Shown one piece after another: positions 25,641-34,002 of a DNA stretch of 34,345 nucleotides. The position numbers were made by a program, and so were the translations under genes. The stretch is taken from NCBI GenBank assembly GCA_937139365.1, contig CAKZPT010000032.1, forward strand, positions 1 to 34,345, given 5' to 3'. The notes under the pieces were generated by a model. The model did no database searches, was not told where the DNA came from, and worked only from the letters and a program-made list of their open reading frames with translations. Each line of letters opens with the position of its first letter. Position 1 is the stretch's first letter. This DNA is from an uncultured bacterium (GTDB taxonomy: Bacteria; Verrucomicrobiota; Kiritimatiellia; PWTM01).

Positions 25641-27164
25641 TTAGAGGCGCCCCTCCCGTTCCGTCAGCCGGCGCAGCCGTTCCCAGTCGGCCGCGTCGCT
25701 CTGCGCTTCCGTCACGCGCCACCGCCAGTTGCCCGCCGGCCGGCCAGGGGTGTTCATCCGGCCCTCCCTTCCGAGACCCAGCACGTCCTGCAGCGGCGCC
25801 ACCGCTAGGCGCGCCCGCGAACGCCACGCCAGCCCGATCATGCCCCAATGGAAATCGCGGGCATCGCCGCCGACATAGCGCATGGCGGCCTCGCGCAGCC
25901 GACGGTGCCGTTCGGCGTCCTCCGTCGAGTCCCCCCCGGGCACGGAGCGAAGCCATCCCTGGGCCGTGTCGTTGTCGTGCGTCCCCGTATAGCAGACCGT
26001 GTCCACCGGGCACTCCTCCGGAGCTCCCTCCCCGGCCGTCAGGAGGCGTTCCATTGCAAACTGCAACACGAGCATGCCGGGCAGCCGGAATTGCCGGCGC
26101 AGCGCGGTCACGGCGGGCGTGATGAAGCCGAGGTCCTCGGCGATCAGCGGCAGACCGCCCAGCGCGGCCCGGACGGCCTTGAGGAAATCCGCGCCCGGCC
26201 CCGGCACCCAACGGCCCGCGGCCGCAGTCAGCGAGCCGGCCGGCACCGCCCAATAGGCCTCGAACCCGCGAAAATGGTCGAGCCGCACCGCGTCGGCCAA
26301 CTCGAGCGCTCGGCGCAGGCGCGCGATCCACCATGCGTAGCCCTCCTCCGCGTGAGCCGGCCATCGGTACAGGGGGTTGCCCCAAAGCTGCCCCGTGGCA
26401 CTGAAGTAATCCGGCGGCACGCCGGCCACCGCCGTCGGTCGGCCGTAGCGGTCCAACTCGAACAAATCCGGCCGGGCCCATACATCGGCGCTGTCGAGGG
26501 CGGAGAAGATGGGGACGTCGCCGATCACCCGGACGCCCGCCCGACGGGCCGTGCGCCGAACCTCAGCCCACTGGCGCTCGAACCACCATTGCTCGATCCG
26601 CCTTCGCTCGATCTCTTCCGCCCATTTCCGCCGCGCCTGCCGCAACGCCGATCGCTCGCGCCGCGCCAGCGAGGACGGCCATTCCCACCACGGCGCCCCG
26701 CCATACGCGTCCTTGAGCGCCGCAAACAGCGCAAAGTCCTCCAGCCACCCGCCCGCACGCTGCCGGAACTCCTCCAACTCGCGCCGTTCGGCCGCCGACG
26801 ACCGGCGACGCCATGCCTCCGTCGCCCGGCGCAACCGTTCCCGCTTCCATGGAATCAGCGCACCGAAGTCCACCTGGCTTCCCGCCGCCCCCGGCGCCCC
26901 TCCCAGTTCCCCGTCCCTGAGCCACCCCTCCCCCCGAAGGATCTCCAGCGAGACCAGAAGAGGATTGCCGGCAAAGGAACTCAGGGTTTGGTAGGGCGAG
27001 TCACCGAAACCGGTCGGACCCAATGGCAAGGTCTGCCATGCGCCGATGCCCGTCTCGCGCAAACGTTCCACCCATCGAAGGGCGGCCGGCCCGATTTCGC
27101 CGATGCCGACGGGGCCGGGCAGCGAGGTCGGATGCAACAGAAGCCCCGCGGCGCGCCGGCTCAA
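25641..27164 (-). CDS. malQ: 4-alpha-glucanotransferase (amylomaltase)
   Basis: 507 aa if started at the TTG at 27164, which overlaps the hypB stop by 4 nt (TTGA). Homologues begin at LLLHPTSLPG, so little can be missing. It is a GH77 enzyme: SLPGPVGIGEIG at the N-terminus, nucleophile Asp296 in RLDHFRG, acid/base Glu343 in AEDLGF, and stabilising Asp397 in THDNDT. It transfers alpha-1,4-glucan segments between maltodextrins or glycogen chains in the cytoplasm. Its place at the end of the hydrogenase-maturation operon is odd and has no obvious functional logic. The Arg/Glu-rich segment at about residues 125-215 is a typical MalQ helical insert. Confidence 0.92.
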   Translation of the reverse strand: MSRRAAGLLLHPTSLPGPVGIGEIGPAALRWVERLRETGIGAWQTLPLGPTGFGDSPYQTLSSFAGNPLLVSLEILRGEGWLRDGELGGAPGAAGSQVDFGALIPWKRERLRRATEAWRRRSSAAERRELEEFRQRAGGWLEDFALFAALKDAYGGAPWWEWPSSLARRERSALRQARRKWAEEIERRRIEQWWFERQWAEVRRTARRAGVRVIGDVPIFSALDSADVWARPDLFELDRYGRPTAVAGVPPDYFSATGQLWGNPLYRWPAHAEEGYAWWIARLRRALELADAVRLDHFRGFEAYWAVPAGSLTAAAGRWVPGPGADFLKAVRAALGGLPLIAEDLGFITPAVTALRRQFRLPGMLVLQFAMERLLTAGEGAPEECPVDTVCYTGTHDNDTAQGWLRSVPGGDSTEDAERHRRLREAAMRYVGGDARDFHWGMIGLAWRSRARLAVAPLQDVLGLGREGRMNTPGRPAGNWRWRVTEAQSDAADWERLRRLTEREGRL

Positions 27165-27988
27165 CCCGCGACGCGCTCGAGGTACCCGATCCACGCGTCC
27201 ATCCCCTCGCCGGTCTTTGCGCTCACCTCGAACACCACCGCGCCCGGCCGCACCGTCTGGACGGCCCGCAGCGCCGCCGCCCGGTCCCACTCAGCCGCCC
27301 CGGCTAAATCGATTTTGGTCAGCACAACGACGCCGGCCACGGTGAACATCGCCGGATACTTCACGGGCTTGTCCTCGCCCTCGACGACCGACAGCAGCGC
27401 GACCTTGACATGCTCGCCGAGGTCGAAGGTGGCCGGGCAGACCAGGTTGCCGACGTTTTCGATGAACAGCAGCCGAGTGTCCGGCGCCAGCACGTGCGGC
27501 AGCGCCTCGGCGATCTGCACGGCGCTCAGATGACAGGCGTTCATCGTCTCGATTTGGCGGACCGGAGCGCCCCGCCCGGCCAGACGGCGGGCGTCATGGT
27601 CGGTGCGCACGTCGCCGGTGATCACGGCGCAGCCCACGCGTCCGCGAAGCCGATCCAGCGTCGCCTCGAGAAGCCGGGTTTTGCCCGACCCGGGCGAAGA
27701 CATCAGGTTGAACGCCGTCACGCCGCGTTCGGCCAATTGCCGACGAATGTCCACCGCCGCGGCCGCATTGGCCGCCAGAATGTCGGCCTCGACCGCCACG
27801 CGCCGCGTCTCCGCGCCAGCGGCGGGGTCCGGGGCTGCCGCCACGCGGTCGGCATGCTCGTGGGGATGGCCGGGAGGGTGGGGGTGCGGATGATCGTGGT
27901 CGTGCGCCGAATGGCGGGTCTCGGAATGGCCGCCCGCGCGGTCCGCCGCACCGCCGGTGGCCGAGTCACAGCCGCAGTGTTCGCACAT
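27161..27988 (-). CDS. hypB: Hydrogenase maturation GTPase, nickel insertion
   Basis: 275 aa. The N-terminus MCEHCGC is the high-affinity nickel site of HypB, followed by a His-rich nickel-storage stretch (about residues 21-45, HDHDHPHPHPPGHPHEH). The G domain has SPGSGKT (98-104), NACHLSA with the metal Cys/His at the dimer interface, and a TKID specificity motif. HypB works with HypA to deliver nickel to the large subunit of NiFe hydrogenases. The start ATG at 27988 lies 29 nt after hypA. Confidence 0.95.
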   Translation of the reverse strand: MCEHCGCDSATGGAADRAGGHSETRHSAHDHDHPHPHPPGHPHEHADRVAAAPDPAAGAETRRVAVEADILAANAAAAVDIRRQLAERGVTAFNLMSSPGSGKTRLLEATLDRLRGRVGCAVITGDVRTDHDARRLAGRGAPVRQIETMNACHLSAVQIAEALPHVLAPDTRLLFIENVGNLVCPATFDLGEHVKVALLSVVEGEDKPVKYPAMFTVAGVVVLTKIDLAGAAEWDRAAALRAVQTVRPGAVVFEVSAKTGEGMDAWIGYLERVAG

Positions 27989-28017
27989 GTCGTCGCGCCC
28001 TCGCGAAATGCTTGAGT

Positions 28018-28371
28018 TTAGCCGCGGCGATCGCAAAGGTCGAGAGATTCGATTCGCAGCTCGCGGCCCGCGACCGTGTCCACCTCCTGGCTGCCGCAGG
28101 CCGCGCACGCGGGAACCCACGGCTCCGGCCGGCTCCACGCGCCGCACCGGCGGCAGGCCACCTCGAAGGGGACCCGGATCGCCTCGAGCGCCGCGCCCTC
28201 CGCGACCGTCCCCCGCGCCGCGATCGGGAACGCGAATTTCAGGGCGTCGGGGTCCACCCCCGACAGGTCGCCGACACGCACCCGGACCCGCGCGATCGCC
28301 GCCGCCCTCTCCTGCGCCGCGACGCGAAGGGCCTGCTCGAGGATGGTTTCAGCGATGGAGAGCTCGTGCAT
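28018..28371 (-). CDS. hypA: Hydrogenase nickel metallochaperone
   Basis: 117 aa. It begins MHELSIAE, in which Met1, His2 and Glu3 form the nickel site. The structural zinc site is CRRCG...CAACG (about residues 73-93). It passes nickel to HypB and the hydrogenase precursor. It starts 15 nt after hypE. The order hypE-hypA-hypB differs from the common hypABCDE order. Confidence 0.94.
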   Translation of the reverse strand: MHELSIAETILEQALRVAAQERAAAIARVRVRVGDLSGVDPDALKFAFPIAARGTVAEGAALEAIRVPFEVACRRCGAWSRPEPWVPACAACGSQEVDTVAGRELRIESLDLCDRRG

Positions 28372-28386
28372 GCCGGAGGGCCCGCC

Positions 28387-29406
28387 TCAGCAAATCCGCG
28401 GCAGCAGCTCGCCCAGAGGCATGTCGACCAGCCGCCGGCCGCCCATGCGGGTTTCCATCGCAACCGCGCCGTCCCAGGCGCCGCAGACGATCGAGCCGAT
28501 CTCCGCCGCCTCCCGCCCCACCTCCGTCGACCGCCACGACCTCAACACCTCCCCCGCCACCGATGGGTCGCACACCGCGACGATCCGGCCCTCGCACGGC
28601 GAGTGGAGCGGGTCCAGCCCGAGCGCATCGGCCAGCGCCGCGGACGCTGAATGCAGTGGGATCGCAGCCTCGTGCAACATGATCCCCCACGGGCGGCCCC
28701 GGGCGCATTCGTTCAAGGCCGCCGCCACTCCACCACGCGTCGGGTCGCGCATCCACCGGATGCCGCCGGCCATCGGCGCCGCCGCCTCCACCAGCGGAAG
28801 CACGGACGCACAGTCGCTCCGCGGGCCGCCCGCGGAAGCAAATTGCATCCGTGCCGCCATCACCGCCATCCCATGATCGCCCACGGGGCCGCTGACCAGC
28901 ACCCGGTCGCCGGGTCGGATCCGCTCCGGCGACAGGGCGTAGCCGGGGAGGCGCTCGCCGAGGCCGGAGGTCGCCAGGTAGAGGCCGTCGCATTGCCCCC
29001 GCGGCACTACCTTCGTGTCGCCCGTCGCCACCGTCACCCCCGCGGCCTTCGCCGCCACCGTCACGGAGTCCAGCACACGCCGCAGGACGTCAAAGGTCAG
29101 CCCCTCCTCGAGGATCAGCGCCAGCGAGAGCCACCGCGCCCGGGCCCCGCACACCGCCAGGTCGTTCACCGTGCCGTTGACCGCCAGCGAGCCGATGTCG
29201 CCGCCGGGGAAGAACGGCGGCTGGACCACGAACGCGTCGGTCGTGAACGCGATCGCGCCGCCTATCGGCGGCAGGTCCGCCGCGTCAGGAAGGCCGCGCA
29301 GCGGTCCGTCGCCGAACCGCGGGACGATTTCGTCGGCGATCAACGCGGCCGTCAGCCGGCCGCCACCGCCGTGCGCCAACAGAATCCTATCTCCCTTCGG
29401 ATCCAC
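28387..29406 (-). CDS. hypE: Hydrogenase maturation carbamoyl dehydratase
   Basis: 339 aa from the GTG at 29406, which begins one base after the hypD stop and has an AGGA-type site about 9 nt upstream. A GTG at 29448 would add 14 residues and overlap hypD. It contains AHGGGGRLT, the PurM/HypE ATP-binding region (FTTDAFVVQPPFFPGGDIG) and GVTVATGDTKVV. It ends in PRIC, whose terminal Cys carries the thiocarboxamide that becomes thiocyanate, the source of the Fe-CN ligands. The carbamoyl donor enzyme HypF is not encoded in this window. Confidence 0.94.
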   Translation of the reverse strand: MDPKGDRILLAHGGGGRLTAALIADEIVPRFGDGPLRGLPDAADLPPIGGAIAFTTDAFVVQPPFFPGGDIGSLAVNGTVNDLAVCGARARWLSLALILEEGLTFDVLRRVLDSVTVAAKAAGVTVATGDTKVVPRGQCDGLYLATSGLGERLPGYALSPERIRPGDRVLVSGPVGDHGMAVMAARMQFASAGGPRSDCASVLPLVEAAAPMAGGIRWMRDPTRGGVAAALNECARGRPWGIMLHEAAIPLHSASAALADALGLDPLHSPCEGRIVAVCDPSVAGEVLRSWRSTEVGREAAEIGSIVCGAWDGAVAMETRMGGRRLVDMPLGELLPRIC

Positions 29407-29407
29407 G

Positions 29408-30508
29408 TCACGTCCGTCCTGCCCGCTCGTACCTGTACCATGCCGCACAACTGCCCTCGGAGGAGACCATGCACGGCCCCACCGGCCGGTCGGGCGTGCA
29501 GCGGCGGCCGAAGAGCGGACACTCCGGGGGATCGATCCGGCCGGCGACGACGTCGCCGCAACGGCAGCCCCGCGGCTCCGCGCCCGGGCCGACCTCGACG
29601 CCGAGCCGTCGCGCCGCGTCCCATTCGGCCCGGTCGGGCCGCAGCGAATAGCCGCTGTCGGGCAAGCGCCCCAGGCCGCGCCACCAGGCGTCCGACGGCG
29701 TGAGCCATTCCTCGATGAGGGCGCGAGCCCGCGGATTGCCCTTCGGCGTCACGACCCGGGCGTATTCGTTGTGCACCTCCGCGCGTCCGGCCGTGGCCAG
29801 CCGAATCAGTTCAAGCAGCCCCGCCAGCACGTCCAGCGGCTCGAAGCCGGCCACCACGCAAGGGCGCCCGTATCGCTCCGCCACCGGCCGGTAGGCGTCC
29901 GCGCCGATCACCGTGCTGACGTGCGGCGGGCACAGGAAGCCGTCCAGCCGCACGTCGGGCGTCGCCAGCACCGCCTCCATCGCCGGCACCACCCGGCGAA
30001 AGGACGTCAGCAGCGAGACGTTTCGGATACCGGCCCGATGCGCGCGGACCGCCAGCATCAACGTCGGCGCGATCGTTGTCTCGAACCCGATGGCCAGGAA
30101 CACCACCTCGCGCGACGGCGCGGCCTCCGCAAGGGCGAGGGCCTCGAGCGGCGAATAACACACGTGCACGTCGCCGCCGGCGCCCCGCCAGCCGGCCAGC
30201 GTCCGGCCGTCGCCGGCCGGCGCATGCAGCAGGTCGCCGAACGTCGCCAGCACCGCCCCCCGCCGTCCCAGCTCCAGCGCCGCATCGAGATAGCCGGAGG
30301 GCGTCACGCAGACCGGGCATCCCGGTCCGCTGACCAGCCGCACGTTCGGCGGAAGCAGCGCGCGCAGGCCGTGGCGGCCCACGGCCATGGTGTGGGTCCC
30401 GCAGACCTCCATGAAACACAGCCGGCGGTCCCCCGCCGCCGCCGCCCGCAGCCCCGCCGCCAGGGCGCGGGCCACCGTCGGATCGCGGAATCCCTCCGTA
30501 AACCTCAT
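29408..30508 (-). CDS. hypD: Hydrogenase maturation scaffold for Fe(CN)2CO assembly
   Basis: 366 aa, the usual HypD length. Conserved Cys motifs are MEVCGTHT, GPGCPVCVTP and FLCPPHVS. The C-terminal cysteines of the [4Fe-4S] cluster are in RGCRCGDVVAG, CPLFGRRC and SCAAW. Together with HypC it holds the iron while CN and CO ligands are added. It starts 19 nt after hypC and abuts hypE. Confidence 0.95.
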   Translation of the reverse strand: MRFTEGFRDPTVARALAAGLRAAAAGDRRLCFMEVCGTHTMAVGRHGLRALLPPNVRLVSGPGCPVCVTPSGYLDAALELGRRGAVLATFGDLLHAPAGDGRTLAGWRGAGGDVHVCYSPLEALALAEAAPSREVVFLAIGFETTIAPTLMLAVRAHRAGIRNVSLLTSFRRVVPAMEAVLATPDVRLDGFLCPPHVSTVIGADAYRPVAERYGRPCVVAGFEPLDVLAGLLELIRLATAGRAEVHNEYARVVTPKGNPRARALIEEWLTPSDAWWRGLGRLPDSGYSLRPDRAEWDAARRLGVEVGPGAEPRGCRCGDVVAGRIDPPECPLFGRRCTPDRPVGPCMVSSEGSCAAWYRYERAGRT

Positions 30509-30527
30509 CGGCGCGCCGCTCCGGCGG

Positions 30528-30776
30528 CTACTGCGACCCGGGATCGGCGGCCGGGCTGCGCGACGCCGCCAGCGCCTGGAACAGATGGAGCTGCGCCTCC
30601 GCCTCCGCCGCGTCCAGCCGCTCGATCGCAAATCCGGCGTGCACGATCACGTGGTCGCCCGGCGCCCACGCCCCCACCAGCGACACGTCCACCACCCGCT
30701 CCACGCCGTCGCACTCGACCACCGCCCGGCCGTCGGACAGCGCGCGCAGCACCCGCATCGGAATCCCCAGGCACAT
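30528..30776 (-). CDS. hypC: Hydrogenase assembly chaperone, HypC/HupF family
   Basis: 82 aa, beginning MCLGIPM, where Cys2 is the functional residue that binds HypD and the hydrogenase precursor. APGDHVIVHAGFAIERLD is the conserved family C-terminal core. It is the first gene of the hyp run. The 281-nt gap upstream (30777-31057) is shared with the divergent zinc operon; only the palindromic promoter near 31016 stands out in it. No convincing Shine-Dalgarno precedes the ATG. Confidence 0.94.
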   Translation of the reverse strand: MCLGIPMRVLRALSDGRAVVECDGVERVVDVSLVGAWAPGDHVIVHAGFAIERLDAAEAEAQLHLFQALAASRSPAADPGSQ

Positions 30777-31006: not shown

Positions 31007-31035
31007 TTGACATACGTAATACCTGGTATTACTTT
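31007..31035 (+). promoter_or_regulatory. Candidate promoter of the regulator-znuACB operon
   Basis: A perfect -35 TTGACA lies at 31007-31012. At 17-nt spacing the -10 position reads TACTTT (31030-31035), a weak match, so the promoter may need help or use a slightly different -10. Most of the spacer is filled by the 17-bp palindrome at 31016-31032, so a bound repressor would block RNA polymerase. The first gene starts at 31058. Confidence 0.5.
31016..31032. promoter_or_regulatory. Perfect 17-bp palindromic operator candidate
   Basis: GTAATACCTGGTATTAC consists of two exact 8-base half sites around one central base. It is AT-rich in an otherwise very GC-rich region and sits between the -35 and -10 of the metal-transport operon. 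Its size and symmetry fit a dimeric DNA-binding protein. The ribbon-helix-helix protein encoded 26 nt downstream is the natural candidate; a Fur/Zur-type protein encoded elsewhere is the alternative. Confidence 0.6.
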
Positions 31036-31057
31036 CGATGTGCGAGAGCTCTTCGCC

Positions 31058-31360
31058 ATGCCGCGCGCGCCGTCGAAATCCGCGATCCTGACCTTCAAGG
31101 CCGAGCCCGCCCTGGTCGCCGCCCTGCGGGCCGTCCCGAACCGGTCCCGATTCATCCGCGACGCGTTGCTGGAGGCGTTGAACCACGCCTGCCCCCTCTG
31201 CGGCGGCTCGGGCGTCTTCACGCCGGCGCAAAAACGGCACTGGGACGAGTTTCGAAAGGCGCATGCGCTGCGCGAGTGCCGCGACTGCCGCGCCCTCCAC
31301 CTCGTCTGTTCCGCCGGCCGCGGACACGCGGACAAGGCCCGCCGGAGGGCGCCGCGATGA
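31058..31360 (+). CDS. Ribbon-helix-helix regulator with C-terminal zinc-ribbon-like Cys cluster
   Basis: 100 aa. Residues 8-41 (SAILTFKAEPALVAAL, then NRSRFIRDALLEAL) look like a ribbon-helix-helix (CopG/Arc/NikR-type) DNA-binding fold: a short beta strand and two helices. The tail has CPLCG (Cys45, Cys48) and CRDCRALHLVC (Cys74, Cys77, His81, Cys84), enough ligands for one or two metal ions. The stop overlaps the znuA ATG (ATGA), so regulator and importer are made together. I infer a metal-sensing autorepressor of the operon acting at the palindrome upstream. It lacks the NikR ACT-like metal domain, so it is not NikR. An in-frame GTG at 31040 would add six residues. Confidence 0.75.
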   Translation: MPRAPSKSAILTFKAEPALVAALRAVPNRSRFIRDALLEALNHACPLCGGSGVFTPAQKRHWDEFRKAHALRECRDCRALHLVCSAGRGHADKARRRAPR

Positions 31361-32277
31361 CCGGCCGGCCTTTCCTCGGCCTCCGCCCGACCGCCGCCGT
31401 TGTCGGCACGGTCCTGGCCGTCTCGGCCTACGCCGGCTTTGCTTCCGACGCGTCGCGTCCGGGCATTGTCGCCACGATTTTTCCTCTGTACGACTGGGCC
31501 GCCGCGCTGGCCGGAGCTTTCGCCGACGTCCGGCAGTTGATGCCCCCCGGCGTCGAGGTCCATGCCTACGCACCCACGCCGGCGGACGTCGCGGCGATCC
31601 GCGCCGCCAGGGTGTTTCTCTACTGCGGGCCCAAACTCGAACCGTGGGCCGAGCGGCTGGTCGGCAGCACCGCCGGCGAACCTCCGCTGCGCCTTGTCGT
31701 CGCCGACCTCGCGCGCGACCCTGCGCGCCCCAACGACGCCGAGATGGATCCGCACTTCTGGACCGATCCTGTTGCGGCCGCCCGGGCCGTGGCCGGGATC
31801 GCGGATGCGCTCGCGGCCCGGTTTCCGGCGCACGCGGAGGACCTTCGCCGGCGGCGCGCCGCCTATCTGGCCGAGCTGGAGCGGCTTGACCGCGACTGGG
31901 CCGCAATGACCGCCTCCGCCCGCCGCCGCACCGTCCTGTACGGCGGCCACCGCGCGTTCGACGCGCTCGGCGCGCGCTATGGCATCGAGTTCGTCTCCCC
32001 CTACGAGGGCTTCTCGCCCGAGGAGCAGCCGACCCCCCGCGCGATGGCCGAGCTTGTCCGGCGGATCCGCGAAACCGGCAGCCGCGTGATCTTCACCGAG
32101 GAGATCGTCGAACCCCGTGTCGCGCGCGCCATCGCGCTCGAAACGGGCGCCGAGATTCGCGTGCTGCACGCCCTCCACAACCGGACACCCGATGAGGCTC
32201 GCCGGGGCGAAACCTACCTCTCGATCCATCGCCGGAACCTCGAGGAAGTCCGCCGCGTTCTCGTGGAGGCGCCGTGA
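31357..32277 (+). CDS. znuA: Zinc/manganese-type ABC transporter substrate-binding protein
   Basis: 306 aa with an N-terminal signal segment (about residues 1-29). It is a cluster A-I metal-binding lipoprotein/periplasmic protein of the ZnuA/TroA family. Likely metal ligands are His69 (VEVHAYAPTPADV), His133 (MDPHFWTDP) and His198 (YGGHRAFDALGARYG), with an acidic residue near Glu248/Glu249 (FTEEIVEP). The His-rich loop found in many zinc-specific ZnuA proteins is absent, so Zn against Mn, or even Ni, is not settled by sequence. YGGH replaces the more usual FHDAF-type context. It overlaps the regulator and znuC genes by 4 nt each. Confidence 0.88.
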   Translation: MTGRPFLGLRPTAAVVGTVLAVSAYAGFASDASRPGIVATIFPLYDWAAALAGAFADVRQLMPPGVEVHAYAPTPADVAAIRAARVFLYCGPKLEPWAERLVGSTAGEPPLRLVVADLARDPARPNDAEMDPHFWTDPVAAARAVAGIADALAARFPAHAEDLRRRRAAYLAELERLDRDWAAMTASARRRTVLYGGHRAFDALGARYGIEFVSPYEGFSPEEQPTPRAMAELVRRIRETGSRVIFTEEIVEPRVARAIALETGAEIRVLHALHNRTPDEARRGETYLSIHRRNLEEVRRVLVEAP

Positions 32278-33050
32278 TCGCCGGACCGCCCGCCGTCCGC
32301 CTCGAGGGCTTGACCGTCCGTTACGGGGCCAGCGCCGCGCTCGAGGAGGTCGTTTTTTCCGTCGAGCCGGGCGATTACGTCGCCGTAGTCGGCCCGAACG
32401 GGTCGGGCAAGACGACGCTATTGCGCGCGGTTGCCGGGTTGCTAACGCCCCATGCGGGCCGTGTCGAGGTGTTCGGGCGCCCCCCCTCTGAGGCCCGCCG
32501 CGGCGGACGGATCGGCTGGCTGCCGCAGGGCTTCGCCCTTCCCCTGCCCCGCTTCCCCGCGACGGTCGAGGAGATCGTGGCCACCGGCCGGCTGGGCCGG
32601 GGCCCGGCTTCGTATCGCGCAGCGGATCGCGCCGCGATCGCCGAGGCGCTCGCGGCCGTCGGCCTCGAACCGATGCGTCGCCGTCCCGTCGGCTCCCTGT
32701 CCGGCGGCCAGCTTCAGCGGGCGCTGCTGGCGCGGCTGCTGGCGGGCGAACCGGAGCTGCTGCTGCTCGACGAGCCGACGACGGCGCTGGACCCGCTGTT
32801 TCGCAACGATTTCCACGCGCTGATCGAGCGGTGGAACCGCGAGCGGGGGGCGACGGTCCTGCTGGTCACCCACGACGCCGGCGACGTCGGCCGGATCGCG
32901 CGGCGTCTGCTTTACCTCGACCGCCGGGTGGTGTTTTACGGTTCGTTCGAGGAGTTCTGCCGATCCGAGGAGATGACCCGCCGGTTCGGGGCGGTTCAGC
33001 AGCACCTGATGTGCCGGCGGCACGAGGCCGCGCGCGGCGACGTCCGATGA
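32274..33050 (+). CDS. znuC: Zinc-type ABC transporter ATP-binding protein
   Basis: 258 aa from the GTG at 32274 (GTGA overlap with znuA). Walker A is GPNGSGKTT, the ABC signature is LSGGQLQRALLARLL, Walker B is LLLLDEPTTALD and the switch His is in LLVTHD. The order binding protein-ATPase-permease and the spacing match znu/troA-type operons. It powers metal uptake through ZnuB. Confidence 0.92.
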   Translation: MIAGPPAVRLEGLTVRYGASAALEEVVFSVEPGDYVAVVGPNGSGKTTLLRAVAGLLTPHAGRVEVFGRPPSEARRGGRIGWLPQGFALPLPRFPATVEEIVATGRLGRGPASYRAADRAAIAEALAAVGLEPMRRRPVGSLSGGQLQRALLARLLAGEPELLLLDEPTTALDPLFRNDFHALIERWNRERGATVLLVTHDAGDVGRIARRLLYLDRRVVFYGSFEEFCRSEEMTRRFGAVQQHLMCRRHEAARGDVR

Positions 33051-33844
33051 TGGAGCTTCTCCACATGGGTTTCATGCGGCGCGCCCTGCTGGCGGGCGTG
33101 TTGGTCGGGGCGTCGTGCGGTGCGCTGGGCGTGGTGCTGCTGTTGCGCCGCGGCTCGTTGATCGGCGAGGGGCTGGCGCACTTCAGCTTCGGATGCGTGG
33201 GGCTGGCGGTGCTGCTCGGCTGGCCGCCGCTGGCGATGGCGCTGCCACTGGCGGCGGCGGCCTCGCTGGCGATTCTCCGCCTGCCGCGCTCCGGCTCGTT
33301 GCCCGGGGATGCGGCGATCGGGATGGTGGCCGCCGTCGGGCTGGCCGGCGGAGTGGCGCTGGCGGCGGCGCGCGGCGGCTTCCGGGTGGATCTATTCGGC
33401 TACCTGTTCGGGGATGTGCTCACGGTTCCGCCGGTCGAAGTCGGGCTGGCGGCCGTCTTGGCGCTGTCGGTCGCCGGCGTTCTGTTCGGCCTTCGCCGTC
33501 CATGGCTGGCCCTGGCGTTCGACCCGGCCCACGCGGAGGCGGCGGGCCTGCCCACGGCGCGGATGGACCGGGCATTGGCGGTGCTGACGGCCGTCACGGT
33601 CGTGTTGGGCATTCGGCTGGTGGGCAGTCTCCTGATCTCGGCCATGCTGATTTTTCCGGCCGCCACGGCGTTGCGGCTGGCCGGCAGCTTTTCCGGCGCG
33701 ATGGGTTGGGCGATGACGCTGGCGGCGGGTTCGGTCGCTGGCGGTCTGCTCGTCGCGGCCGCCGCCAACCTGCCCGCCGGAGCGGCGATCGTGCTGATTC
33801 AGGCCGCGGGGTTCGCCGCCGTCGCGGCGTTGCGGCGCCGGTAA
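33047..33844 (+). CDS. znuB: Zinc-type ABC transporter permease
   Basis: 265 aa with about 8 membrane segments. It is an ABC-3 family permease. MGFMRRALLAGVLVGASCGALGVVLLLRRGSLIGEGLAHFSFG is the typical N-terminus of ZnuB/TroC proteins. GIRLVGSLLISAMLIFPAATA is the conserved segment contacting the ATPase. The ATG overlaps the znuC stop by 4 nt. It is the last gene of the operon and is followed by a strong palindrome at 33856. Confidence 0.92.
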   Translation: MMELLHMGFMRRALLAGVLVGASCGALGVVLLLRRGSLIGEGLAHFSFGCVGLAVLLGWPPLAMALPLAAAASLAILRLPRSGSLPGDAAIGMVAAVGLAGGVALAAARGGFRVDLFGYLFGDVLTVPPVEVGLAAVLALSVAGVLFGLRRPWLALAFDPAHAEAAGLPTARMDRALAVLTAVTVVLGIRLVGSLLISAMLIFPAATALRLAGSFSGAMGWAMTLAAGSVAGGLLVAAAANLPAGAAIVLIQAAGFAAVAALRRR

Positions 33845-33911: not shown

Positions 33912-34002
33912 GGAGAGGTGCCAGAGCGGTTGATTGGGCACGCCTGGAGAGCGTGTTTACCCCAAAAGGGTAACGTGGGTTCGAATCCCACCCTCTCCGC
34001 CA
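33912..34002 (+). tRNA. tRNA-Ser (anticodon GGA)
   Basis: 91 nt including encoded CCA. The acceptor arms GGAGAGG (33912-33918) and CCTCTCC (33992-33998) pair perfectly, with discriminator G and CCA. The anticodon stem CACGC/GCGTG holds the loop CTGGAGA with anticodon GGA. A long variable arm (TACCCCAAAAGGGTA) marks a class II serine tRNA. The T loop reads GGTTCGAATCC. It decodes UCC and UCU. Confidence 0.96.

Follow-up and report, generated by a model that had tools for sequence, protein, structure and literature searches.

A ribbon-helix-helix protein family as a candidate repressor of zinc uptake in the place of Zur

Which protein controls the zinc importer of an uncultured bacterium from the Kiritimatiellia (phylum Verrucomicrobiota, lineage PWTM01)? 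The question is raised by contig CAKZPT010000032.1 of GenBank assembly GCA_937139365.1, of which positions 1 to 34,345 were analysed (34,345 nucleotides, hereafter the window). Here a znuA-znuC-znuB importer is preceded by the gene of a 100-amino-acid protein that joins an N-terminal ribbon-helix-helix (RHH) part to a C-terminal Cys/His domain. Control of bacterial zinc import is attributed to Zur (Fur family), AdcR (MarR family) and similar proteins. We think it quite probable that the small protein, called the regulator below, represents a so far undescribed RHH family that represses zinc uptake in Zur's place.

The locus reads as a single transcription unit. The regulator gene (31058..31360, forward strand, ATG start) is followed on the same strand by znuA (31357..32277; metal-binding protein of a zinc ATP-binding cassette (ABC) importer, PF01297, E 1.7e-65, with a three-His ligand set), znuC (32274..33050; ATPase subunit, PF00005) and znuB (33050..33844; permease subunit, PF00950, E 4.6e-54). 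The four-gene operon spans 31058-33844 and has stop/start overlaps at its first two junctions: regulator and znuA share 4 bp (znuA ATG at 31357-31359, regulator stop TGA at 31358-31360), and the GTG start of znuC at 32274 overlaps the znuA stop codon. With a PF01297 substrate-binding protein, a PF00005 ATPase and a PF00950 permease in one operon, the transporter is a cluster A-I importer. In NCBIfam its proteins come nearest to the AztA/B/C zinc transporters, with AztA the top model for ZnuC and AztB for ZnuB, all below cut-off.

This gene order recurs far beyond the window. Among 388 genomes of the phylum there are 21 homologues, the window protein included, with E below 1e-22, followed by a gap to chance-level matches. 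Besides the window, 19 of the 20 phylum relatives are immediately followed by znu genes in the same orientation, and the 20th lies at a contig end. A scan of species contigs with the single protein gave no relatives; one based on an alignment, covering 84,980 species, found 88, from which 80 loci were retained for neighbourhood and operator counts. These 80 loci come from Lentisphaerota, Planctomycetota, Desulfobacterota, Spirochaetota, Zixibacteria, Acidobacteriota, Myxococcota, a Firmicute, Hydrogenedentes, TA06 and others. ZnuA and ZnuC lie downstream on the same strand in 73 of them, joined by ZnuB in 66, and one locus (L154) has ZnuA only. In all, at least 90 genomes, drawn from many bacterial phyla, carry the regulator at the head of a zinc-importer operon, in nearly every case with the operator described below in front. 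The distribution is patchy, and in two Desulfobacterota orders the regulator is found in 17 of 116 and 4 of 118 genomes.

Many RHH proteins of similar size are antitoxins, and the regulator could be an RHH antitoxin or plasmid-type repressor that occupies its position by chance. No toxin gene adjoins it, however, and because the linkage to znuACB is conserved across phyla (the 73 loci above), we exclude this explanation as hardly credible.

Six of the 80 loci have no znu genes. Two of these (L143, L146) are near contig ends, the contig of L146 ending about 0.5 kb past the regulator gene, and two others (L132, L135) have neither znu genes nor a membrane protein after the regulator. In the remaining two, a multi-pass membrane protein takes the place of the znu genes (L120, 5352-6188, with a His-rich loop; L123, 5308-5961). 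No Pfam or NCBIfam model matches it above cut-off, and it is a candidate for a new zinc permease.

In the window, the predicted operator GTAATACCTGGTATTAC (31016..31032, no strand) is a perfect 8+1+8 inverted repeat beginning 3 bp after the −35 promoter element TTGACA (31007..31012, forward strand). It sits in a patch of 39% GC inside a window of 70% GC (contig C32, from a genome of 2.82 Mb that is 97% complete). The motif GTAWTACNNNGTAWTAC occurs once in the window, with 0 mismatches, and remains the single occurrence even when 3 are allowed (chance expectation 0.15 at ≤3 mismatches). A scan of the whole 2.82-Mb genome gave no second site at ≤2 mismatches from the palindrome.

The best match to RTAWTAYNNNGTAWTAC within 350 bp upstream of the regulator was then taken at each of the 80 loci. 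It has 0 mismatches in 34 loci, 1 in 30 and 2 in 12, so that 64 of 80 lie at ≤1 and 76 at ≤2. As controls at ≤1 mismatch, dinucleotide shuffles gave 0.06% and other windows of the same loci 0 of 1,415. Since the motif had been read from some of these loci, 17 further, unused loci from two Desulfobacterota orders (L233-L247, L252, L253) were also examined: all 17 have the operator, with at most 1 mismatch and 43-68 bp ahead of the protein domain, and znuA comes next. Within the phylum the operator is present at all 20 relatives besides the window, and the exact operator occurs in 19 of 21 regulator-bearing genomes versus 37 of 367 others (p about 1e-15). The family thus combines operon linkage to a zinc importer with a conserved operator at its promoter, the two features by which we place it, putatively, among the zinc-uptake regulators. 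Single operator matches in other genomes (L205-L212) lie mostly inside genes or by unrelated genes, and we take them as chance.

What is conserved in the operator is a pair of boxes. Each site consists of two 7-bp boxes GTAWTAC (W, A or T; 31016-31022 and 31026-31032 in the window), self-complementary except at the central base and with centres 10 bp apart. Across the 76 loci, the two central bases are AA in 22, TT in 21, TA in 18 and AT in 14. Because the box centres are A or T independently, dyad symmetry of the whole site is not the conserved feature, and direct-repeat forms such as GTATTACTTTGTATTAC are therefore as good as inverted ones. By analogy with RHH proteins of the MetJ/Arc type, paired boxes at this distance would suit two adjacent RHH dimers on the same face of the DNA. 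In L133 and L143 the regulator is preceded by two tandem pairs of GTAWTA boxes rather than a single pair, which may form a double operator. A genome that lacks the regulator (G319, C49:1597-1623 and C341:2356-2392) also has tandem 10-bp repeats with GTAWTAC in them, probably an unrelated repeat array.

The promoter context points to repression. TTGAC(A) lies 2-5 bp 5′ of the operator in about 40 of the 76 relatives, and in the window a −10-like element TACTTT (31030..31035, forward strand) lies 17 bp from TTGACA and shares the last 3 bp of the operator, a layout seen in many relatives. With this spacing the site fills the interval between −35 and −10 and touches the −10, and we infer a repressor position for that reason. 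A first-pass annotation of this DNA, made from the letters alone, had already coupled the small gene to znuA-znuC-znuB, as the overlapping reading frames and Pfam assignments confirm. It had placed a perfect palindrome in the spacer after TTGACA, which is right for the window, but symmetry over all 17 bp is not obligate in relatives. It had also expected homologues to share the link to metal transporters and the upstream site, and these are found in 73-76 of the 80 loci and again in all of the 17.

Is Zur absent where the regulator is present? In the window genome no Fur-family (PF01475) gene was found by a search that was positive in 13 of 14 control genomes, so the Zur protein that the first-pass annotation had named as a possible occupant of the operator finds no candidate gene there. 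In the family to which the window's genome belongs, the four regulator-bearing genomes (G000, G007, G020, G213) have no FUR domain anywhere; each of the three that lack the regulator (G148, G243, G348) has exactly one Fur-family gene, adjoining znuA (divergently in two genomes, in the same orientation in the third). NCBIfam does not decide whether these three proteins are Zur proper, and we read them as Zur because of their position next to znuA. The regulator and Zur thus appear, from gene content, to replace each other within this family.

The protein itself has the expected first half. Its N-terminal part aligns to the RHH of E. coli NikR (hhalign, probability 83%, E 8.8e-6), and the NCBIfam RHH model aCcr1 matches 74 of 78 members, in agreement with the RHH-like N-terminus first proposed. 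RHH_1 matches 22 of 78 at E ≤0.01, with the window protein below the Pfam cut-off, and the CopG sequence alone gave no match. By sequence profile (beta-alpha-alpha), the regulator belongs to the RHH superfamily. An AlphaFold2 model from 78 sequences (predicted local distance difference test, pLDDT, 82) has helices at 17-24, 29-42 and 56-65 and strands at 69-73 and 80-84; an earlier one built on 21 sequences reached a poor pLDDT of 60. The window protein passes the cut-off of no Pfam or NCBIfam model, and the searches turned up no model describing the family, which current annotation has therefore apparently missed.

About 58 residues follow the RHH part, with the pattern CPLCxGxG...H...CxxC...C. 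Fifteen positions are invariant in all 78 sequences (F13, K14, N28, S30, F32, R34, C45, P46, C48, G50, G52, H69, C74, C77 and C84), H61 is kept in 77, H81 in 53 and H78 in 46. The six metal ligands listed in the first-pass annotation are therefore only partly upheld: the spacing of Cys45, 48, 74, 77 and 84 is fully conserved, but His81 is not, and the list lacked H69 and H61. Residues 43-69 match the zinc knuckle of anti-TRAP (profile match to 3lcz, E 0.0012). C45, C48, C74 and C77, as two CxxC knuckles, probably hold a structural zinc ribbon. H69 and C84, together with H61, form the likely sensing site, since H69 and C84 are predicted to lie at the outer ends of the last two strands (69-73 and 80-84).

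Some observations weigh against reading the regulator as a zinc sensor that has replaced Zur. A fold search against solved structures (Foldseek/VIA) gave no significant match, the best being a weak one to an antitoxin-complex chain (3h87_C, Z only 2.5); the model is small and in two parts, so this carries little weight. Outside the window's family, Fur-family genes coexist with the regulator in most genomes that bear it, and for that reason we limit the replacement of Zur to that family. The Cys domain may have no sensing role, because CxxC knuckles like those of DnaJ and anti-TRAP can be purely structural. The whole Cys/His domain could then be merely a structural zinc ribbon, as the resemblance of CPLCxGxG and CxxC to the structural zinc sites of those proteins would allow, and the repressor would answer another signal, such as cysteine redox or protein level alone. 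We consider this unlikely, given that two to three conserved ligand-type residues (H69, C84, H61) exceed the four that a structural site needs and that linkage to metal import is near-exclusive. Lastly, DtxR-family proteins occur in all seven genomes of the window's family (two in regulator-bearing genomes, one in regulator-lacking ones), and such a regulator might use the operator, leaving the small protein as an importer accessory or chaperone. However, the operator tracks the presence of the small protein across phyla and genomes, the three loci without a recognisable operator (L132, L135, L146) also show no znu genes, and it is the small protein that has an RHH DNA-binding profile; this explanation is very improbable.

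Which metal, then, would the regulator sense? The same repressor and operator might serve nickel, manganese or iron instead of zinc. ZnuACB-type importers can carry any of these, cluster A-I ABC importers include Mn/Fe importers, and the manganese MntC model scored second to AztC in NCBIfam. The window also holds a hypB-hypA-hypE-hypD-hypC set for hydrogenase nickel maturation (27161-30776, minus strand, named from translations; hypC starts at 30776), divergent from the regulator operon. However, hyp genes adjoin the regulator in 0 of the 20 phylum relatives, and a nickel role suggested by this cluster was dropped; nickel is unsupported because the hyp genes do not travel with the regulator family. 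The linked ZnuA proteins have three His at the metal site, a zinc-type set, and often His-rich loops; the regulator swaps with a znu-linked Fur-family gene; and a His-rich ZnuA lies in a second operon of the regulon. Zinc is thus the metal that we favour, and another metal is a minor possibility.

That second operon is led by the operator in several Lentisphaeria genomes (sites at L083 3760, L084 3702, L085 3569, L089 3696, L092 3683, L096 619 and L097 296). The site precedes a small HxxxH/CxxC membrane protein, DUF2946-like below cut-off in L097, and in most copies a prepilin-like DUF1559 protein comes next. Downstream of these two, L092 has a ZnuA containing HSHEGEEHHHS and an ABC/FtsX pair; in L085 an ABC/FtsX pair and a His-rich protein come after the small membrane protein. 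The cluster is apparently a second, undescribed zinc-uptake operon, a putative assignment from gene content. Only one of the extra operator matches (L213) resembles it. In three genomes of one genus (L090 3603, L093 3860, L095 1396), a gene with a product starting MLSFAEEIYLLALDDVTGKIV, which by eye we take to be GPP34-like, has an operator about 200 bp upstream.

Two other features complete the description. Another ZnuA-like protein, whose match falls into two pieces, is encoded on a different contig from znuACB (G000:C21:10270-11199), with equivalents in G007, G020, G213, G148 and G243, and is present with or without the regulator. A tRNA-Ser (GGA) gene (33912-34002) lies shortly downstream of znuB.

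The mechanism we propose is as follows. The N-terminal RHH (strand about 9-14, helices 17-24 and 29-42) would form a dimer whose beta-ribbon reads one GTAWTAC box, and two dimers would occupy neighbouring boxes spaced by 10 bp (one helical turn) in the interval from −35 to −10, where they would block RNA polymerase. With enough cytoplasmic zinc, the metal-loaded protein would repress its own operon; when zinc drops, metal would be lost from the regulator and the importer made. Self-repression once metal fills the Cys tail, as first suggested for this locus, fits the operator position, the autoregulatory layout, the invariant Cys/His residues and the exchange with Zur.

Taken together, and held a shade less firmly than the assignment of the family, the likely picture is a second metal-sensing branch of RHH proteins: phylum-spanning zinc co-repressors with a built-in Cys/His sensor, displacing Zur and binding as two adjacent dimers to paired self-complementary 7-bp boxes. 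If true, this would be a second RHH metal sensor besides NikR, in many phyla and with a simple predicted regulon. NikR is described in a 2019 review as the only RHH protein regulated by metal (PMC7055735). In some species of delta-proteobacteria, a 2004 survey found znuABC but neither Zur nor a Zur site, and it left open 'another regulatory mechanism' (PMC545781); the regulator family occurs in related Desulfobacterota lineages and possibly explains such regulator-less znuABC operons. We found no description of this RHH zinc-regulator family in the open-licence literature, and an earlier description elsewhere is possible.

Among known systems, the RHH proteins aCcr1/CdrS (NF053762, NF058555; E down to 8e-8) come nearest to the regulator by NCBIfam model. 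These are archaeal cell-cycle regulators that are not known as metal sensors or to be linked to znu. RHH repressors of the MetJ/Arc type place adjacent dimers on adjacent short operator boxes, much like the paired boxes here, but they have no metal domain, and the co-repressor of MetJ is S-adenosylmethionine. Anti-TRAP (RtpA) and DnaJ zinc domains share the CxxCxGxG knuckle but are not DNA-binding regulators of metal uptake. NikR is alike in fusing an RHH domain to a C-terminal metal domain and in repressing a metal ABC importer (nickel, nikABCDE), as we propose for the regulator. However, NikR has an ACT-like nickel domain and operators of the type GTATGA-N16-TCATAC, whereas the regulator ends in a short Cys/His domain, is paired with two 7-bp boxes spaced by 10 bp and adjoins zinc importers; no NikR model in Pfam or NCBIfam matches it, as the first-pass annotation had supposed of the ACT-like domain. 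Zur has the same genomic job, being linked to znuABC as a presumed repressor and exchanged with the regulator in the window's family, but its fold is unrelated (winged helix, PF01475) and its operator different. Because the regulator lacks both the FUR domain and the ACT domain of NikR, it belongs to neither family.

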